From Halobacteriovorax marinus (GTDB taxonomy: Bacteria; Bdellovibrionota; Bacteriovoracia; Bacteriovoracales; Bacteriovoracaceae): a stretch of 64,000 nt of DNA. Under the pieces are notes generated by a model, which saw only the letters and a list, made by a program, of their open reading frames with translations, made no database searches and had not been told where the DNA came from. A program made the position numbers and the translations under genes. The stretch lies in the NCBI GenBank assembly GCA_002163155.1, contig MAAO01000006.1, positions 186,001-250,000 on the forward strand, in the 5' to 3' direction. This document shows, one piece after another, positions 751 through 49,603 of this stretch. Every line of letters begins with the position of its first letter. The first letter of the stretch is position 1.

Positions 751-3387
751 TTGAGTAGAAGGGTAGTTTTTCCGCTAAAACTAAAAATACTTGCCATTAT
801 GGCCGCCCTTTTGGGTGGCTCAATATCTATTTATGCTATTTTTGCATTAGATTTATTTAAAAAGGATAAGTCAGCTTATATTTACGGTAATAATAGATCT
901 ACAATAGAGTCCTTCCATCAACAGGTAGACCAATTAATTTCTGGGAACTTTGATAAATTACATGTTCTTAGTCTAATGCCTCAAGCAAAGATTAAAAAAC
1001 TACTTGAATCTTATAATAGCTTTTATCATTTAGATTATAAATCAAAGCTAGATAGAAAAGATCACTTCTATAACATCAATGCTATCGAAGATGAGAATTT
1101 ATCTTTGTCAGAATATAAGAATATTTCTAAAAATTATGAATCAAGATATCGACACAAAAATATTTCTATTCACTATGAGAATGAATTTTCATTCTTAAAA
1201 ATGAGTTATGTAAATGTAGATAATGGTGTTTCAGTAAGTGCTCATATTTCTCTAAATTTATTAAAGCAAATAGCTAGTCAGTTTCCACAATACAGTACCT
1301 ATATATTACAAATGGATGGGGAGCAATTTTGGAATTCTATTAAAACTGATAACGAAACATTTTTCAATGAAATAATAGAGAAGAAAGTTGAAAAGGCCGT
1401 CGTAGAGCTTGGAATACAAGAGCCATACATTGTAGCTTTTAAAATTGATCCAAAGAGAAAATTAATATTTGTCTCAAAAATTAAAAAAAGTGAAGCCTAC
1501 AAAGTAAATGATTACTTAGTTAATAAATCTAAGGTTTTTGGTATTGTCATTCTTTCATTGGCTGGATTTATTGCGCTACTTTTCTCAAGATCATTAACTT
1601 CTCCATTAGAATCTCTCTATAACCTGACCATTAAATTTTCAAAAGGCGAGTTTGGAGAGAAGGTCTTGATTAAATCAAGAGATGAAATAGGTTCACTTGG
1701 AGAGTCATTTAACTTTATGAGTGGAGAGATCGTTCGCTATATGAGTGAAATGGAAGAGAAGGCACGCCTTGAAAATGAAGTGAAAACTGCTAAGTATGTT
1801 CAGTCAAATTATTTCCCAGCAAAAGAGATCTCACTTGAAAGGTCTACTCTTTCTTCTTTTTATACTCCCGCGAGCGAGTGTGGAGGAGATTGGTGGGGAT
1901 ATATGGAATTTGATAATAAGCTTGTCCTTGTTATAGCTGATGCGACTGGGCACGGTGTTCCTGCTGCTTTGTTAACTGCGACTGCTCATTGTTGTATAGA
2001 GAATTTAAAACAAATGACGAGCACAAACAAAGACATTGTTAATTCTCCTGCAAGAATTTTAGAATTTATGAACAAGTCAATTCTTTGCTTAGATGGTAAG
2101 CTGTTGATGACGGCTTTCTGTTGTTTAATTGATTACGATTCAAATACATTAATCTATGCCAATGCGTCTCATAATCCTCCTTTTCATTATAGTAATCCAA
2201 ATGGAGAGGAAGCGACTAAATCACACTTTTCCCCACTTCTAGGTGTAGTGGGACCTCGGTTGGGTCATAAAACTGATGGGGAATATATTGATGAACGTAT
2301 CTCTATAAATGATCGTGAAAAAATAATACTTTTTACAGATGGTATCTTAGAATCTCAAAATAGTGATGAAAAAGAATATGGTCAAAGAAGATTTTTTAAA
2401 TCACTAATTAAAAATACACTTAAAGAAAATGCCGATTTTAAAAAATCTATCATCGATGATGCTTATGAGTTTTATGGAAAGACACCAATAAATGATGATA
2501 TTACTTTTGTTTCAGTTGAAATTATAAAAAAAACTAAAAAGATTTCTATAGATATTAATGATGATGAATTAAAAAGCGAAGTCACGAGTATGCATGACCT
2601 TCCATATTCTATCTCTACTGATGAGTGTCATTCTATTACTACCATTACAGACAGAATGGATAATACGGGAGAGAATTGTTTTCTAATCTCAAGCTTGAGT
2701 GATGAGGATAATATATTAAAAGTATTAAAAACATCGAGTCTAAATCATTTAATAGGTCGAAATGCTAAGAAAATGAAATTAGAAATAGTGAATAACTTAA
2801 AGCAAATGTTCGCTCCAAAAGGTCTCTCTAACTATATAAATTGCTCGAAGAATATAGCTCACTTAGTGTTATCAAAAAATGACTTTTCAAAAGTAAATTC
2901 AATCTTAGATAAATTTAATTATGATCATTGTTTTCAAAGTCCTGTAGATTATTTGAAAATCATTTCTAATGAGTTGCTAACAAATGCTATTTACCATTCC
3001 GGAAGCGGCGAAGATTTTATAAAGAGATCTCAAATGGATAGAAACATATCTCCTATATTGTCTGAGGAAGAGGCTATAGTGTTTACTGTAGGTAGCGATG
3101 AAAACTATATTGCAATTTCCGTTAAAGATTCTACAGGAAGATTAAAACGTAGTGATATTGTGAATAATCTTGTTAGAAGCTTTGAATCAAAGCAACATGA
3201 AAATAAAGAAGGTGGAGCCGGTCTTGGTCTCTACTTGGCTTATTCTTATTCAAATCAATTTATTGTTAACACGATTGATGGGAAATCAAGTGAAGTCATT
3301 TGCATAATAGATGTAAATAAAAGATTAAAAGCTTATAAAGAGAGGATTACCTCTTTTCATTATTTTGAACAAAAGGGCAATACATGA
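751..3387 (+). CDS. Membrane SpoIIE-type PP2C phosphatase with HAMP and C-terminal RsbW-like ATPase domain
   Basis: I prefer the TTG at 751 (878 aa) because GAGAGAGG lies just upstream; a TTG at 736 is also in frame. There is a transmembrane helix near residues 10-32, an extracytoplasmic region of about 230 residues, a second helix near 265-283 and a HAMP segment (SLTSPLESLYNL...DEIGSLGESF). The PP2C/SpoIIE domain (about 345-590) carries ECGGDWWG and IADATGHGVPAALL, with aspartates for metal binding. The last 150 residues look like a GHKL anti-sigma ATPase: N-box NELLTNAIYH, VKDSTGRL and GGAGLGLYLAY. The protein therefore seems to combine the phosphatase and kinase roles of a partner-switching system. 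It overlaps the STAS gene by 4 bp (ATGA). Targets are not identifiable here. Confidence 0.85.
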   Translation: MSRRVVFPLKLKILAIMAALLGGSISIYAIFALDLFKKDKSAYIYGNNRSTIESFHQQVDQLISGNFDKLHVLSLMPQAKIKKLLESYNSFYHLDYKSKLDRKDHFYNINAIEDENLSLSEYKNISKNYESRYRHKNISIHYENEFSFLKMSYVNVDNGVSVSAHISLNLLKQIASQFPQYSTYILQMDGEQFWNSIKTDNETFFNEIIEKKVEKAVVELGIQEPYIVAFKIDPKRKLIFVSKIKKSEAYKVNDYLVNKSKVFGIVILSLAGFIALLFSRSLTSPLESLYNLTIKFSKGEFGEKVLIKSRDEIGSLGESFNFMSGEIVRYMSEMEEKARLENEVKTAKYVQSNYFPAKEISLERSTLSSFYTPASECGGDWWGYMEFDNKLVLVIADATGHGVPAALLTATAHCCIENLKQMTSTNKDIVNSPARILEFMNKSILCLDGKLLMTAFCCLIDYDSNTLIYANASHNPPFHYSNPNGEEATKSHFSPLLGVVGPRLGHKTDGEYIDERISINDREKIILFTDGILESQNSDEKEYGQRRFFKSLIKNTLKENADFKKSIIDDAYEFYGKTPINDDITFVSVEIIKKTKKISIDINDDELKSEVTSMHDLPYSISTDECHSITTITDRMDNTGENCFLISSLSDEDNILKVLKTSSLNHLIGRNAKKMKLEIVNNLKQMFAPKGLSNYINCSKNIAHLVLSKNDFSKVNSILDKFNYDHCFQSPVDYLKIISNELLTNAIYHSGSGEDFIKRSQMDRNISPILSEEEAIVFTVGSDENYIAISVKDSTGRLKRSDIVNNLVRSFESKQHENKEGGAGLGLYLAYSYSNQFIVNTIDGKSSEVICIIDVNKRLKAYKERITSFHYFEQKGNT

Positions 3388-43740: not shown

Positions 43741-44535
43741 TTGATTTTAAGCAAATTGAAAAAATTTGTAGAAATAATTGGTGCAATGACCATTGAGAAT
43801 ATTAGGGGAATCGGCCAAATTTGGCTATTCGGTCTAAGATTTTTCTATTGGATAGTAAAGCCACCTTTTCGTTTTAAATTACTAAGTGAACAATTCTACT
43901 TCATTGGAAATAAATCTCTCTTTATCATTACGTTAGCCGGTGGTTTTACCGGAATGGTTATGGCCTACCAAACTTACTTTGGTTTTAAATTGATTAATGT
44001 TGATTCATTGGTTGGTTCTGTTGTGGCCATTACGTTAGCAAAAGAATTGGCGCCAGTTCTTACGGGCCTCATTGTCGCTGGAAGAGCAGGTGCTGCTATG
44101 GCAGCTCAAATTGGTACTATGAAAGTTACCGAACAAGTTGATGCCCTTGAAGTCATGGGGATTGATAGTTATCAGTACCTTGCTGTTCCTAGAATTATTG
44201 CTGCTACATTTGCCTTACCAATGCTCAGTATCACTTTTCTCTTTGTGGGAAATATTGGATCAATTGTTGTAGGAACAGTTGCTCTTTTGATTGATGAAAC
44301 AGTTTATATGTCAAAGTTAAGTGAGTTCATGTTCATAGGTGATGTCATGCAAGGGGTTATAAAGGCCACTGTATTTGGTTTTATCATTGCAGTTGTTGGA
44401 ACATACTTTGGATTTAATGTAACTAAGGGCGCTGAAGGAGTGGGGAAGGGAACCAACCTCGCAGTTGTTTGGGGTATGATCTTAGTACTTGTTGTTGATT
44501 ATTTCTTAACAAGCTTTCTCGTGCAGGTGCTTTAA
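43741..44535 (+). CDS. mlaE: MlaE-type ABC transporter permease
   Basis: 264 aa with a TTG start; GGGGAAG sits five bases upstream and no better start exists. The family signature EQVDALEVMGIDSYQYLAVPR is intact. An amphipathic N-terminus and about five transmembrane helices follow. It is the membrane permease of an MCE/Mla lipid transporter acting between inner and outer membranes. Overlaps the ATPase gene by 1 bp. Confidence 0.93.
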   Translation: MILSKLKKFVEIIGAMTIENIRGIGQIWLFGLRFFYWIVKPPFRFKLLSEQFYFIGNKSLFIITLAGGFTGMVMAYQTYFGFKLINVDSLVGSVVAITLAKELAPVLTGLIVAGRAGAAMAAQIGTMKVTEQVDALEVMGIDSYQYLAVPRIIAATFALPMLSITFLFVGNIGSIVVGTVALLIDETVYMSKLSEFMFIGDVMQGVIKATVFGFIIAVVGTYFGFNVTKGAEGVGKGTNLAVVWGMILVLVVDYFLTSFLVQVL

Positions 44536-45287
44536 TGTTAACTTTTGAAGAACCTGCAGTAAGTATAAATAGTATTACGAAAGAATTTGGTGACCACACA
44601 GTTCTAAATAAACTGAGCTTTGATATTCCTCGAAATAAAATCACAACAATTTTAGGATTTTCTGGAGCAGGAAAGTCCACATTATTAAAACTCATTCTAG
44701 GTCTTCACAAACCTGATCAAGGTTCAATTGAAGTTTTAGGGAAAAATCTTTCTAAATTTAGACCTATTGAGTTACGAGAGTTTCGACAAAACTTTGGTAT
44801 GCTTTTTCAATATGCAGCTCTTTTCGATTCTATGACTGCTGTTGAAAATGTTTATTTTCCTTTAAACGAATTTACCAGCCTTTCAATGGAAGAAATGATT
44901 GATAAGGCTAAAAAGTTACTCATTTCAGTTGGGATTAAAGATATCTCCTTTGATAGAATTCCCTCAGAGCTTTCTGGAGGAATGAGAAAGAGAGTGGGTC
45001 TTGCTAGAGGATTAGCGCTCGATCCACTAATAATGCTTTATGATGAACCAACGACAGGTCTTGATCCCATTACAACTAAAATGGTGAACGAACTAATAGT
45101 AGATACAGCTAAGAAGAATAAAGACCGAGGCATGACCTCGATTATTATTTCTCATGATGTAAAAGCTACCCTAAGAATTTCTGACTATGTTGCTTTTTTG
45201 GATCGTGGTAATATTGTTGAATACTTACCTGTTAAAGAATTTGAAAAATCAACAAATCCTCTTGTACAGGAATTTATTAATTTGTGA
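44535..45287 (+). CDS. mlaF: MlaF-type ABC transporter ATPase
   Basis: 250 aa. Walker A GFSGAGKST, Q-loop FQYAALFDSMT, signature LSGGMRKRVGLARGLA, Walker B LIMLYDEPTTGLDP and the H-loop SHDVKAT. Mla-type ATPases carry the SGGMRKR signature seen here. It powers lipid movement with the adjacent permease and MCE protein. Confidence 0.95.
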   Translation: MLTFEEPAVSINSITKEFGDHTVLNKLSFDIPRNKITTILGFSGAGKSTLLKLILGLHKPDQGSIEVLGKNLSKFRPIELREFRQNFGMLFQYAALFDSMTAVENVYFPLNEFTSLSMEEMIDKAKKLLISVGIKDISFDRIPSELSGGMRKRVGLARGLALDPLIMLYDEPTTGLDPITTKMVNELIVDTAKKNKDRGMTSIIISHDVKATLRISDYVAFLDRGNIVEYLPVKEFEKSTNPLVQEFINL

Positions 45288-45299
45288 GAATTTTAAGAT

Positions 45300-46670
45300 A
45301 TGAATGAATTTAAAATTGGTCTTATGGCCATAGCAACCATGAGTATGGTTGTTTTTATGTCCTTAAAAATTACTTCAAACCAGTCTGGTTTTGGAGATTA
45401 TATTACGTATAGGACTATCGTTTCTGATGCCTCTGGTATCTTTCCAAAAACTCCAATTAAAATTGCCGGGATTAATGCTGGTCGAATTCTAAAAATCGAA
45501 CTGCAGGGAAATCAGGCCCTAATAACTTTTGAAGTTCTTGAAGAAGTTAAAATTGTTAAAGATTCAAAACTAAAGGTAAAGACTGTAGGTTTTCTTGGAG
45601 ACAAGTATTTAGAAATAAGCGTTGGTCATTCAGCTGAAAGACTGTCACACAACGGTTTTATTTTGTCTCATGAAGGTGCTGGTGTTGAAAAATTGGTGAA
45701 AGATGCCAGTGACGTTCTAAATGACGTTAAGGTTATGATAAAAACTTTAAAAGAATCTATTTCTCCTGAAGGAGAAGTTTCTCCAGTCAAAAAAATGATG
45801 GATGACTTTGTTGAAGTTGCAGCTAACGCTAAAGCGGCTACTGAAACACTCAAAAAAGTTATCACGGGCAATGAAGAGAAGTTTAATAACCTCATTGCTA
45901 ACTTTGAAAGATTTTCTGAACAACTGGCTTATCATACTGATGATCAAGAACAAAATAGTGCTATGAAAGATGTTAAGTCCATTCTCGGAAGTGCTGATGT
46001 CATGATGAAGGATTTACAAGATCTTGTGGCAGATGTTAGAGAAGGAAAAGGAACAATTGGAAAATTCCTAGTTGAAGAAGATATTGCTGATGAAGTGAAG
46101 CAGACACTATCTAGTGTAAGTAAGCTTGTTGGAAAAGTTAATGATATTAGATCCGAATTAAATGTTTTCATTGGAGCTGGTACAGAAGAGGGAAGTTCTA
46201 CAACTGCAGCTCTTCGAATCTTTCCTTCTCCTGAGAGATTCTATATCCTAGGTGTTTCTTCTTCTGACTTCGGTCCAGATATTGAAAAGGAAACAACTAC
46301 AACAGTTGGTGGTGTGACAACGATTTCGACTGAGAAACTGAGAAAGAAGGATACTTTCAGGTTTGATTTACAAATTGGTCGAAAATTACATAATTGGTAC
46401 TTTAGGGGAGGACTCATAGAGTCTACCGGTGGAATTGGAGTTGATTACGATTTCTTTAACGGTGCTACTAGAGTTACATTTGATGCATTTGATTATAGAA
46501 CAGGCCTTGGTCCTAACTTAAGATTAGCCACAGAAGTTCAGTTGTGGAACGTTTTCTACGGAAAAATTTCCGGAGTAGATTTGGCAACAAATCAACGAGC
46601 TGGAATGTTTAGTCTAGGTCTTAAGTTTAATGATGAAGATATTAAAGGACTGTTAGGTTTTTTCTTATAG
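45300..46670 (+). CDS. mlaD: MlaD-type MCE protein with beta-rich C-terminal domain
   Basis: 456 aa, much longer than E. coli MlaD (about 180). One N-terminal transmembrane helix (KIGLMAIATMSMVVFMSL), one MCE domain (about 34-112: YRTIVSDASGIFPKTPIKIAG, VGFLGDKYLEIS), a long helical region (about 120-300) and a C-terminal part (about 305-456) of alternating strands (FRFDLQIGRKLHNWYFRGG, AGMFSLGLKF) ending in GLLGFFL. The helix could span the periplasm and the strands sit near the outer membrane. No MlaA, MlaB or MlaC gene is adjacent. Confidence 0.88.
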   Translation: MNEFKIGLMAIATMSMVVFMSLKITSNQSGFGDYITYRTIVSDASGIFPKTPIKIAGINAGRILKIELQGNQALITFEVLEEVKIVKDSKLKVKTVGFLGDKYLEISVGHSAERLSHNGFILSHEGAGVEKLVKDASDVLNDVKVMIKTLKESISPEGEVSPVKKMMDDFVEVAANAKAATETLKKVITGNEEKFNNLIANFERFSEQLAYHTDDQEQNSAMKDVKSILGSADVMMKDLQDLVADVREGKGTIGKFLVEEDIADEVKQTLSSVSKLVGKVNDIRSELNVFIGAGTEEGSSTTAALRIFPSPERFYILGVSSSDFGPDIEKETTTTVGGVTTISTEKLRKKDTFRFDLQIGRKLHNWYFRGGLIESTGGIGVDYDFFNGATRVTFDAFDYRTGLGPNLRLATEVQLWNVFYGKISGVDLATNQRAGMFSLGLKFNDEDIKGLLGFFL

Positions 46671-46677
46671 GTAAGTA

Positions 46678-47778
46678 ATGGAAAAGTGTTGGTTAATAAG
46701 AACTAAAAATAAACAAATTCTGGGACCTGTTTCAAAACAGAAAATTCTTGATTTTGTAAAAAAAGGATCGTTAGCTCCTGATGATGAAATTACCAGCGGT
46801 AATGGATACTGGTTTTCTATCAAAGAAAAAACCCTTATTGAGAAATATCTCAATGGAGATATTCCTCAAGGTTTCAATCCTGTTACCGAAGCTCCAAATG
46901 TTTTAACAACAGCTGAAACACAAGGTAATGAGCTTACTGGATCATTGAATCCAAATACGATGCCTAAGAAGGAGAGTGCTCCTGAAGTAGTAGCTGAACC
47001 AGCTCTTACTACAGAGGATGAAGATCAAGTCCCTTCTGAAGACGATTTAGGTTATCCAGATATGGGGGCGAGTAGTGAGAGTTCTGCCAAACCTACTGGA
47101 GATGACTTAGAATATCCAGAAATGGGTGATCTTGAATATCCTAACATGAGTGACGTTGCAACTCCTACCAAGCCTACTCCTGTCCAAGCTCCAGTTAATA
47201 AAGTTGAGGCTCCATCTCCTGTTACTCAGGTAAAGGCCTCTGCCAATGTTGAGACACAAGAGCCTGGAAATGATGAGGAAGGGAAACTTCCTGAAAGTGA
47301 TGACCTTGATTATCCTGATATGGGAATGGAAGCAGCTCCTGCAGCACCTGTCGCTACGGTTGATGAAGATGCTACAGATCCTGGTTTTGACTTCAGTGAA
47401 AGTTCTGCTGATGAATCAGCTAAGGTTAGTGAAGCGGTAGGTGAAAAAACTCAAGATGAGATTATTTTTTCTGAACCACCTCTTGTAAATGAAGATGTAG
47501 CTCCTGATTTTCCTACTGAAGAAGTTTCGGAAGATTCAACTTCTAAAAAAAAAAGTAAAAAACAACTAAAGAAGACAAAGAAGAAAAATCAAAACCAAAG
47601 AAATGATAAATTTCTTCTTTATATATTATTTATCTTGGTTGGAGTCATTCTCTTTGGTGCTTATTATTATTTTACCAATGTTTTAAATTCTGATATCACA
47701 AAAGTAGAAAATCCATTTATCCAAAGCGTTCATGCCCAAGTAGAGCCTAAGGGCTTTGCTAAAAAAAAAACTTTATAG
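46678..47778 (+). CDS. GYF_2-domain transmembrane protein (frame 0 product before A10 run)
   Basis: 366 aa. A GYF_2 domain (1-65: KCWLIRTKNKQILGPVSKQKI...GYWFSIKE), then an acidic proline-rich linker holding four copies of a DDLxYPxMG motif (122-130, 142-150, 151-157 and 208-216), a lysine-rich stretch (289-303), a transmembrane helix (312-333) and a short tail ending KKKTL. The frame stops 6 bp after a run of ten A at 47761-47770. A -1 shift there continues into an open frame to 49019, giving about 780 aa. Follows mlaD after 7 bp. Confidence 0.82.
   Translation: MEKCWLIRTKNKQILGPVSKQKILDFVKKGSLAPDDEITSGNGYWFSIKEKTLIEKYLNGDIPQGFNPVTEAPNVLTTAETQGNELTGSLNPNTMPKKESAPEVVAEPALTTEDEDQVPSEDDLGYPDMGASSESSAKPTGDDLEYPEMGDLEYPNMSDVATPTKPTPVQAPVNKVEAPSPVTQVKASANVETQEPGNDEEGKLPESDDLDYPDMGMEAAPAAPVATVDEDATDPGFDFSESSADESAKVSEAVGEKTQDEIIFSEPPLVNEDVAPDFPTEEVSEDSTSKKKSKKQLKKTKKKNQNQRNDKFLLYILFILVGVILFGAYYYFTNVLNSDITKVENPFIQSVHAQVEPKGFAKKKTL
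47761..47770 (+). other. A10 homopolymer, candidate frameshift or slippage site
   Basis: Ten A in a row, read as AAA AAA AAA A in frame 0. An A-AAA-AAA slippery heptamer is contained in it. A -1 shift, or one extra A in the mRNA, joins the GYF_2 frame to the open frame 47763-49019. The -1 frame has a stop (TAA, 47760-47762) directly before the run and no standard start codon for about 110 codons after it. Confidence 0.6.
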
Positions 47779-49019
47779 AGCTTGAAGAGCTTAAAAATGA
47801 GTTTTATAAAATATCATTTAGAGTCACGGGTAGTGGATTAACCATACTGAAATCATCGACTCAAGCTATTACAGAATGTAAGTATCAAAATGATTTTCAA
47901 CTAAAATTAGCCCTTGTCCTAGCAAAGAGAAATTCTCTATTTAAAGATCAGTTTAAAGAATTTGTAAAAAGATGTAGTTCTAAGTTTAGTGAAAGATCTT
48001 TAGATATACTTCATTACCCTTATCAACAAGGAGAAGACTTTAAAATTGTTAAGAACTATCTTTTTTCTAGAGGTTTTACTAAAACTGAAATCTCTTTGTT
48101 TAAAACTATTTGGAATAAGAAATATGGGAAGTTTTCTGAATTAGAATCAATCTCAAAAATTTTAAAACAGATAAAGGAAGCAAAATCTGAATTAAAAAAA
48201 TATCGTCTCTATAACTTGTTAATAGATATATCTAAAAAAAGTGATTCTGTATTTTTAAAAAAACTATTAGCATCTGTAAGCTATGGGCATATTGGTAATC
48301 GCAGCCTTTTATTGAAGAACTTTAACGAACTTCTTTCAATTAATGAAGTCTTCTATGCACTTGACTTGAATCAACGATTTGTAAGTTATCAAAATATAGA
48401 TTTATATTTTTCTCTAATTAATCAACTCTTCAATTCACTTAGGAACAAAATTGAGGACGAAGAGCTCATTAGAATCTTTGACTCTAACTTTAAATTTTTA
48501 GACTACTCAAAAAAGAAGATTACATATCAGACGGATGATTTGGATTGGGCATTAAATGAGTTACGAGAAAAAATGAATACTTATCGTTATGGTTTAAAGT
48601 TTCCGGCATATTGGATTAAAGAAATTGAAGGACGTACTTCTACTAAAGAAAAAGATGAGTTTATTCGAAAGCAGGAAACCAAAAGGCTTGTTAAACATTT
48701 AAAACCTATAGATATGTGGATTTTTAAATATAATCTTCCAATAGATGAAGTCGAAAGAAAGCTTGTAATTAAAAAACTTCTCAAAAAATATAAAAGTGAT
48801 TTACTATCAAAATATGTGGTACTTGATTTAATTGAAGTGCCAAAAATAAAAAAAATACTTTCTAAGTCTCTTCGTGAATTGGCAAAACCTCGATTTTCTT
48901 TACAGAGGGCGTATTACCATAATAACTTAGAGCTAGGAAAAGAGTCTTCTCTTCTTATTTATAAACTTCTACAGATGGGAGAGGAGAGTGATGAGTTTAT
49001 TTGGTGGTTATTGCTGTGA
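47763..49019 (+). CDS. Downstream part of GYF_2 protein in -1 frame (or separate ORF from TTG 48096)
   Basis: The frame is open from 47763 to the stop at 49017-49019 (418 codons). The first standard start codon inside is TTG at 48096 (307 aa), with no ribosome site near it, while the 110 codons before it look coding (NFIELEELKNEFYKISF, TECKYQNDFQLKLALVLAKR). The product is helical and lysine-rich with no recognised family; it resembles helical-repeat proteins. I read it as the C-terminal half of the preceding protein, reached by frameshift, transcript slippage, or through a genome/assembly error at the A10 run. Confidence 0.6.
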   Translation, partial: KKNFIELEELKNEFYKISFRVTGSGLTILKSSTQAITECKYQNDFQLKLALVLAKRNSLFKDQFKEFVKRCSSKFSERSLDILHYPYQQGEDFKIVKNYLFSRGFTKTEISLFKTIWNKKYGKFSELESISKILKQIKEAKSELKKYRLYNLLIDISKKSDSVFLKKLLASVSYGHIGNRSLLLKNFNELLSINEVFYALDLNQRFVSYQNIDLYFSLINQLFNSLRNKIEDEELIRIFDSNFKFLDYSKKKITYQTDDLDWALNELREKMNTYRYGLKFPAYWIKEIEGRTSTKEKDEFIRKQETKRLVKHLKPIDMWIFKYNLPIDEVERKLVIKKLLKKYKSDLLSKYVVLDLIEVPKIKKILSKSLRELAKPRFSLQRAYYHNNLELGKESSLLIYKLLQMGEESDEFIWWLLL

Positions 49020-49603
49020 ATGAGAAATTATTTGTTTATCCTACTGATACGGTTTGGGGAATTGGAGGAAATATTTTTTCTAAAGTTTGCTATGAGAAAA
49101 TCGCGAATATAAAAGGGCATGCAGAGAAAAAACCATTAAGTGTTATTTTTTGTAGTATTAAAGATATTCGTGAACTTATTGAATTCCCTAAGACTTACTC
49201 TGATAACTGGTTGGAGACTTTCTTCAAGTATGAGTCTACCCTTGGAATTCCTAAGGAATGGTCAAAGAAAGAGTTACCTCAATGGATTTGTGAAGATAGT
49301 CAGTTTCTCACTATTCGCTGCCTAAATTCAAAAGTTATAAAGAATATAATTGATAAGGCAGGAGGACCTATAACTTCAACAAGTTTGAATTTTTCTGGTT
49401 TTCCTCCCATCATTGATGGTGTTGAAGCAAGAGACTTTTATGAAAATCATATCACTGATGAAGTTTTTATTGAAAATCATGAAGCACCTTGTTCAGGAAG
49501 ATCATCAACAATAGTTCTTATTAGTGAAGAGTCACATACGATAGTTAGAGAAGGTCAATATATCAATGAAATCAAAGAACATCTTAAATTACTCTCAACC
49601 TGA
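49016..49603 (+). CDS. Sua5/YrdC-type threonylcarbamoyl-AMP synthase-like protein
   Basis: About 195 aa from the GTG at 49016, whose GTGA overlaps the preceding stop; TTG 49001 is also in frame. Family motifs: FVYPTDTVWGIGGN at the start, HAEKKPLSVIF and GPITSTSLNFSG, with GRSSTIVLI near the end. The single-domain length matches YrdC/TsaC rather than the two-domain Sua5. It makes threonylcarbamoyl-AMP for t6A tRNA modification. It overlaps the next gene's start by 38 bp. Confidence 0.85.
   Translation: MNEKLFVYPTDTVWGIGGNIFSKVCYEKIANIKGHAEKKPLSVIFCSIKDIRELIEFPKTYSDNWLETFFKYESTLGIPKEWSKKELPQWICEDSQFLTIRCLNSKVIKNIIDKAGGPITSTSLNFSGFPPIIDGVEARDFYENHITDEVFIENHEAPCSGRSSTIVLISEESHTIVREGQYINEIKEHLKLLST

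Follow-up and report, generated by a model that had tools for sequence, protein, structure and literature searches.

A conserved run of at least nine A residues divides a gene beside mlaEFD in Bacteriovoracaceae and probably marks programmed transcriptional slippage

The gene that follows mlaD in the 64 kb stretch of the Halobacteriovorax marinus genome analysed here (the window) is divided between two reading frames at a run of ten A residues, and the same division, at an uninterrupted run of 9 to 14 A, was found in 76 genomes from 29 genera of the Bacteriovoracaceae-type family when the DNA of each locus was read. The division is genuine, and it is conserved and maintained by selection. With a probability that we place at roughly three in four, the gene is one recoded unit in which some transcripts carry a slip of RNA polymerase at the run, giving a short and a long product, the C-terminal domain (C-domain) of the latter possibly being released.

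Features of the locus are listed in Table 1. The predicted short form consists, in order, of a GYF_2-like domain, an acidic linker with DDLxYPxMG repeats, a basic stretch, one membrane helix and a short tail. An earlier note on this DNA, made from the sequence, had described an A10 run with the stop of a 366-aa ORF just after it and an open -1 frame of 418 codons, and the coordinates confirmed this description. Also as described there, the -1 frame has no early standard start codon (the first ATG, GTG or TTG is at 48096) and is preceded by a stop directly before the run (TAA at 47760-47762). The GYF_2 label given in that note held only as a weak Pfam match, below the cut-off for the isolated domain; matches to GYF_2 (PF14237) at E 0.01 or less were obtained for 16 of 26 relatives, the best at 3.3e-5. 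The note named a single A10 run, and a second is present in the same gene (site 1 in Table 1).

Table 1. Coordinates of features at the split locus, numbered from the first base of the window.
Feature	Position	Strand	Remarks
Upstream operon genes	43741..46670	+	mlaE, ABC ATPase, mlaD
mlaE	43741-44535	+	
ABC ATPase gene	44535-45287	+	taken as mlaF
mlaD	45300-46670	+	
Zero-frame ORF (short form)	46678..47778	+	366 aa; TAG at 47776-47778
GYF_2-like domain	46678..46857	+	Pfam 20.6 bits, cut-off 25.8
Site 1, first A10 run	47545..47554	+	before the membrane helix; in frame in the window gene
Predicted membrane helix FLLYILFILVGVILFGAYY	47611..47667	+	Lys-rich stretch before it
V-H-A-Q, local copy of the V/A-x-A-Q motif	47728..47739	+	proposed signal peptidase I site after A
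Site 2, A10 run at the frame break	47761..47770	+	proposed slip site
-1 frame ORF, C-terminal helical domain	47763..49019	+	418 codons, TGA 49017-49019; reached only via the A run
Sua5/YrdC gene, downstream	49001..49603	+	the C-domain ORF reaches or overlaps it

The 76 split genomes comprised 63 genomes of 26 genera and 13 more that added three genera. Comparison of run length among relatives, which the earlier note had proposed, gave 9 to 14 A at the break in all 76 (12 runs of A9, 53 of A10, seven of A11, three of A12 and one of A14). The downstream frame was -1 in 74 of them, the run almost invariably supplied three AAA codons to the zero frame, which usually reached its stop within about 60 bases. 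In 67 genomes the run was located past the membrane helix and ahead of the C-domain, most often a few codons after a V/A-x-A-Q motif; five genomes had it before the helix, and in one genus four species had it about 70 codons inside the C-domain. G081, G122 and G141 each showed two breaks, one ahead of the helix, where the shift at a run is +1, and one past the helix, where it is -1. In G120 (L117, run at 3058) and G148 (L086, run at 1885), read in gene orientation, the downstream frame was +1 (or -2); these two are either real changes of direction or homopolymer assembly errors, the latter being conceivable for single odd cases because most of the genomes are drafts.

The GYF part was present in 122 of the 129 family genomes, including all 48 genera, and the C-domain was detected in 44 of the 129 by single-sequence search and in 89 by profile; among 369 genomes of the phylum, it was found outside the family once, as a marginal match (E 7.9e-4). 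Identity between C-domain homologues fell to about 20%, and conservation of the domain began with the first codons after the run. The deepest division of the C-domain tree has split forms on either side, and the tree shows about ten switches between the split and the fused state. Programmed transcriptional realignment is recognised, among other things, by a run of at least 9 A or T at the break and by retention of run and frame relation among diverged homologues, and both were noted here.

Relatives with other arrangements of the gene serve as natural controls for the run. The one-frame homologue of the whole fusion that the earlier note had suggested searching for was found in 15 genomes, in proteins of about 590-825 aa, and a junction run of at least 9 A was kept in 11 of the 15; slippage in the fusions with a run would yield the short form instead. 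The case that the note had named as refuting a joint product, in which the two halves are separate genes with starts of their own, was encountered only in a few relatives (G030, G075, G108, G109 and G014), where the C-domain is a separate gene with its own apparent signal peptide, and none of these has a junction run. In eleven species of one genus the protein ends in KPLPV just past the helix, and neither a C-domain nor a junction run was detected in these species.

The A runs of this gene are more than chance would give. Runs of exactly ten A number 18 in 4.55 Mb (16 contigs, both strands), and two of these are in this gene, 216 bp apart; they are also the only sense-strand runs of at least 9 A inside an ORF of at least 90 aa in the window. 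Expected numbers of runs of at least 9 A were obtained by synonymous codon shuffling, and all such counts are to be read by genus (29) and not by genome, since related genomes are not independent. Among the zero-frame ORFs (63 sequences), 90 runs were seen as opposed to 51.4 +/- 4.9 after shuffling, and with the junction left out the count was 27 for 24.8 expected. The excess is thus located at the junction. One-frame fusion ORFs likewise held 28 runs versus 14.7 expected, while C-domain ORFs held 5 versus 14.6 and 190 kb of neighbouring ORFs held only 6 versus 8.7. Site 1 was considered as a second slip site conserved throughout the family and was not borne out overall, there being no excess of runs outside the junction. 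Frame breaks in the site 1 region were noted in eight relatives, instead of or besides the break at the later run.

Judged from the sequences, programmed slippage is most likely the explanation of the split, and slippage in transcription is more likely than slippage on the ribosome. Efficient slippage of bacterial RNA polymerase is reported at runs of 9 A or T, near the length of the 9-10 bp hybrid (PMC5009743). The main alternative, which we consider unlikely although it deserves more weight than the others, is that programmed -1 ribosomal frameshifting gives rise to the long form without any essential role of RNA polymerase slippage. The run does contain A_AAA_AAA in the zero frame, a heptamer of the X_XXY_YYZ type that is already known as a bacterial shift site (PMC3711429). 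However, such a heptamer would do with fewer A residues, yet no run shorter than 9 A was seen and A_AAA_AAG with fewer A was never used; had the heptamer sufficed, about 27% of sites should have runs of at least 9 A, whereas every site has one. Neither of the usual stimulators was apparent. No RNA structure was found downstream in a test that covered folds other than pseudoknots (mean fold z -0.23 downstream versus 0.10 in the control), and Shine-Dalgarno-like sequences showed no clear enrichment (16% versus 0-13% in controls). The direction of the shift among orthologues, a GeneTack criterion, bears on both explanations. One dominant direction is regarded by the GeneTack authors as a mark of ribosomal frameshifting (PMC3711429), and the 74 of 76 genomes with a -1 shift therefore favour the ribosome and count against transcriptional slippage. 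Movement of the run within the gene, the two genomes with the other direction and the +1 breaks at a second A run in three genomes point the other way. Transcriptional slippage was favoured on the strength of the missing structure and the lack of a clear Shine-Dalgarno-like signal, the published threshold of 9 A or T and the precedent of tssM with its A11 run, the single dominant direction being noted as contrary.

Phase variation, by which the length of the run would shift during DNA replication and turn the long form on or off between cells, appears very improbable. Homopolymer runs are typical of such loci, and fused and split states do alternate between related species. Random switching should nevertheless produce both out-of-frame states about equally, as opposed to the 74 genomes with -1 and two with +1 observed, and phase variation was rejected on these frame statistics. 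Moreover, runs of 9, 10, 11, 12 and 14 A all keep the same -1 relation, which indicates that run length changes at the flanks by substitution and not by insertion or deletion.

Still less probable is that the two halves are separate genes, with the C-domain made from a non-standard start of its own or by coupling after the TAG. The five relatives with a separate C-domain gene and signal peptide conform to such an arrangement; in the split genomes, by contrast, the C-domain frame lacks a signal peptide and often lacks a start near the junction, although it is conserved from the first codons past the run. The existence of one-frame fusions also argues against separate genes, and the A run would have no purpose. 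Except in those five relatives, separate genes were rejected. The remaining two of the four options listed in the earlier note, sequencing error and a recent frameshift mutation in a decaying gene, have a negligible probability even though homopolymers are error-prone and single odd cases (G120, G148) may be errors, for the same break in 76 separately assembled genomes of 29 genera, 74 of them in the same direction, with a conserved downstream protein and on both sides of the deepest split in the C-domain tree, led to rejection of error and pseudogene alike and supported the other two options, programmed frameshifting and transcript slippage.

Under transcriptional slippage, RNA polymerase would add one A, or omit two, on the run in a fraction of transcripts. 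The unslipped mRNA would encode the 366-aa protein (GYF domain, linker and membrane helix); from the slipped mRNA a protein of about 780 aa would be translated, whose C-terminal domain would be mostly helical and lie outside the inner membrane. An N-in topology was inferred for the membrane helix from the Lys-rich stretch and the positive-inside rule. Small residues at -3 and -1 follow the hydrophobic segment, as V-H-A before Q in the window gene and as V/A-x-A-Q in most relatives, and the motif resembles the ends of the signal peptides of separate C-domain genes; about 20 residues separate V-H-A-Q from the helix, a longer distance than is usual for signal peptides. Since the separate genes carry signal-peptide-like starts with ends of this kind, the C-domain is most likely periplasmic and is possibly released by signal peptidase, as far as the motif and the relatives can indicate. 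The V/A-x-A-Q between helix and run would then be a signal peptidase I site from which the C-domain is freed into the periplasm, and slippage would determine the quantity of periplasmic domain relative to GYF membrane protein next to the MlaEFD lipid transporter.

A broader reading is offered tentatively, at somewhat less than even odds for its parts taken jointly. Throughout the family, slipping of RNA polymerase in a core chromosomal gene would serve to set a protein ratio, and this built-in control would be coupled to protein export; with the run just past the signal peptidase site, slippage would decide how often the periplasmic domain is made and released near the Mla transporter; and the slip site would move and the split swap with fusion in evolution while the two-product outcome was kept.

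The fold of the C-domain, predicted at high confidence (pLDDT 91.9), is mostly helical with a short beta hairpin. No Pfam family common to its members was found, nor was a PDB sequence match below E 0.03 or a Foldseek match at E 0.001 or less. The best structural match by VIA, a 14-3-3 protein (Z 7.0, 4.2 A over 123 residues), is of a generic helical kind, and weak or missing matches are no proof of a new fold. Position in the operon suggests that this gene may contribute to lipid transport. The possibility that the C-domain has replaced MlaC was also weighed. Pfam MlaC (PF05494) was not found in the window genome and occurred in 17 of the 129 family genomes, 12 of them in genus g14, which has no C-domain, and another being G032. 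Absence of MlaC from most C-domain genomes and its presence mostly in a genus without the C-domain may be suggestive, a pattern that does not amount to independent evidence. Replacement was not accepted, since MlaC and C-domain are both present in G011, G102 and G110 and g14 is a single genus, and since in the two inspected among the MlaC loci (L185, L184 and the others of L175-L186) MlaC was away from mlaEFD, beside a gene for an outer-membrane protein that by eye looked to be of TolC type. The idea is kept only as a lead.

A second junction of similar appearance was noted in the same genome outside the window, where a pyruvate kinase ORF ends at an A10 run (G000:C1:511643; L122 1244-1253) and the -1 frame continues into a ferredoxin-like domain (CASCQRCVQICPH), whose first cysteine motif is not preceded by a standard start. 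In G001-G004, the four other members of the genus, a single ORF of about 560 aa encodes both pyruvate kinase and ferredoxin-like domain, and A10 is again present where they join; the corresponding locus of G017 looks split at A11. This junction supports the view that slippage at A10 may be put to use in this group.

Few cases of transcriptional slippage are known in cellular, non-mobile genes, and in a 2005 survey that covered 108 genomes, one group of genes other than IS elements showed conserved slippage (PMC1088944). On sequence evidence, the present gene is unusually widespread for a slippage gene of the known type, its putative slip run having been kept through deep divergence. If slippage is true, it would determine the proportion between membrane-anchored GYF protein and a long form with a periplasmic domain, and selection on protein ratios set in this way becomes directly testable, as the run is deeply conserved and fused, separate and domain-lost relatives provide controls. 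Split genes of this kind are easily mistaken for pseudogenes or for two genes. The literature searched, in which subscription papers mostly did not figure, contained no mention of this gene and no account of slippage in the family.

The window resembles the mla operon (mlaFEDCB) of proteobacteria in that the gene comes after mlaE, an ABC ATPase gene and mlaD, and its products would have cytoplasmic and periplasmic parts, as have MlaB and MlaC; no sequence similarity to either protein was found. With regard to slippage, the dnaX genes of Thermus thermophilus and of Chlorobi, which slip at 9-10 A (PMC3711429, PMC5009743), share with the window gene a long A run in a conserved chromosomal gene and short and long products, and differ in gene and purpose. 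The long form of Thermus dnaX needs no frame change, and slippage there gives the shorter product, as it would in the one-frame fusions, whereas the window gene needs slippage for its long form. Homopolymer slippage extends the product in the Shigella type III secretion genes spa13 and mxiE and in IS transposases with A9 slippage (PMC5009743, PMC1088944); those are plasmid or mobile genes as opposed to a core chromosomal gene of the family. A further parallel is transcriptional slippage at A runs of about 11 in tssM1 of Citrobacter rodentium and tssM3 of Yersinia pseudotuberculosis, where an A11 run gives products of two lengths whose ratio matters (PMC4256274). Both there and here, the run lies just before a stop in the gene for an inner-membrane protein, and of the two products (predicted ones in the present gene) the longer has an additional periplasmic domain; slippage at tssM lengthens the product in one species and shortens it in the other. 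The proteins are unrelated, and tssM sites are known in two species whereas the run described here is kept in 29 genera. In addition, the present protein has a V/A-x-A-Q motif between helix and run, which points to release of its extra domain; slippage is inferred here, whereas in tssM it was measured.
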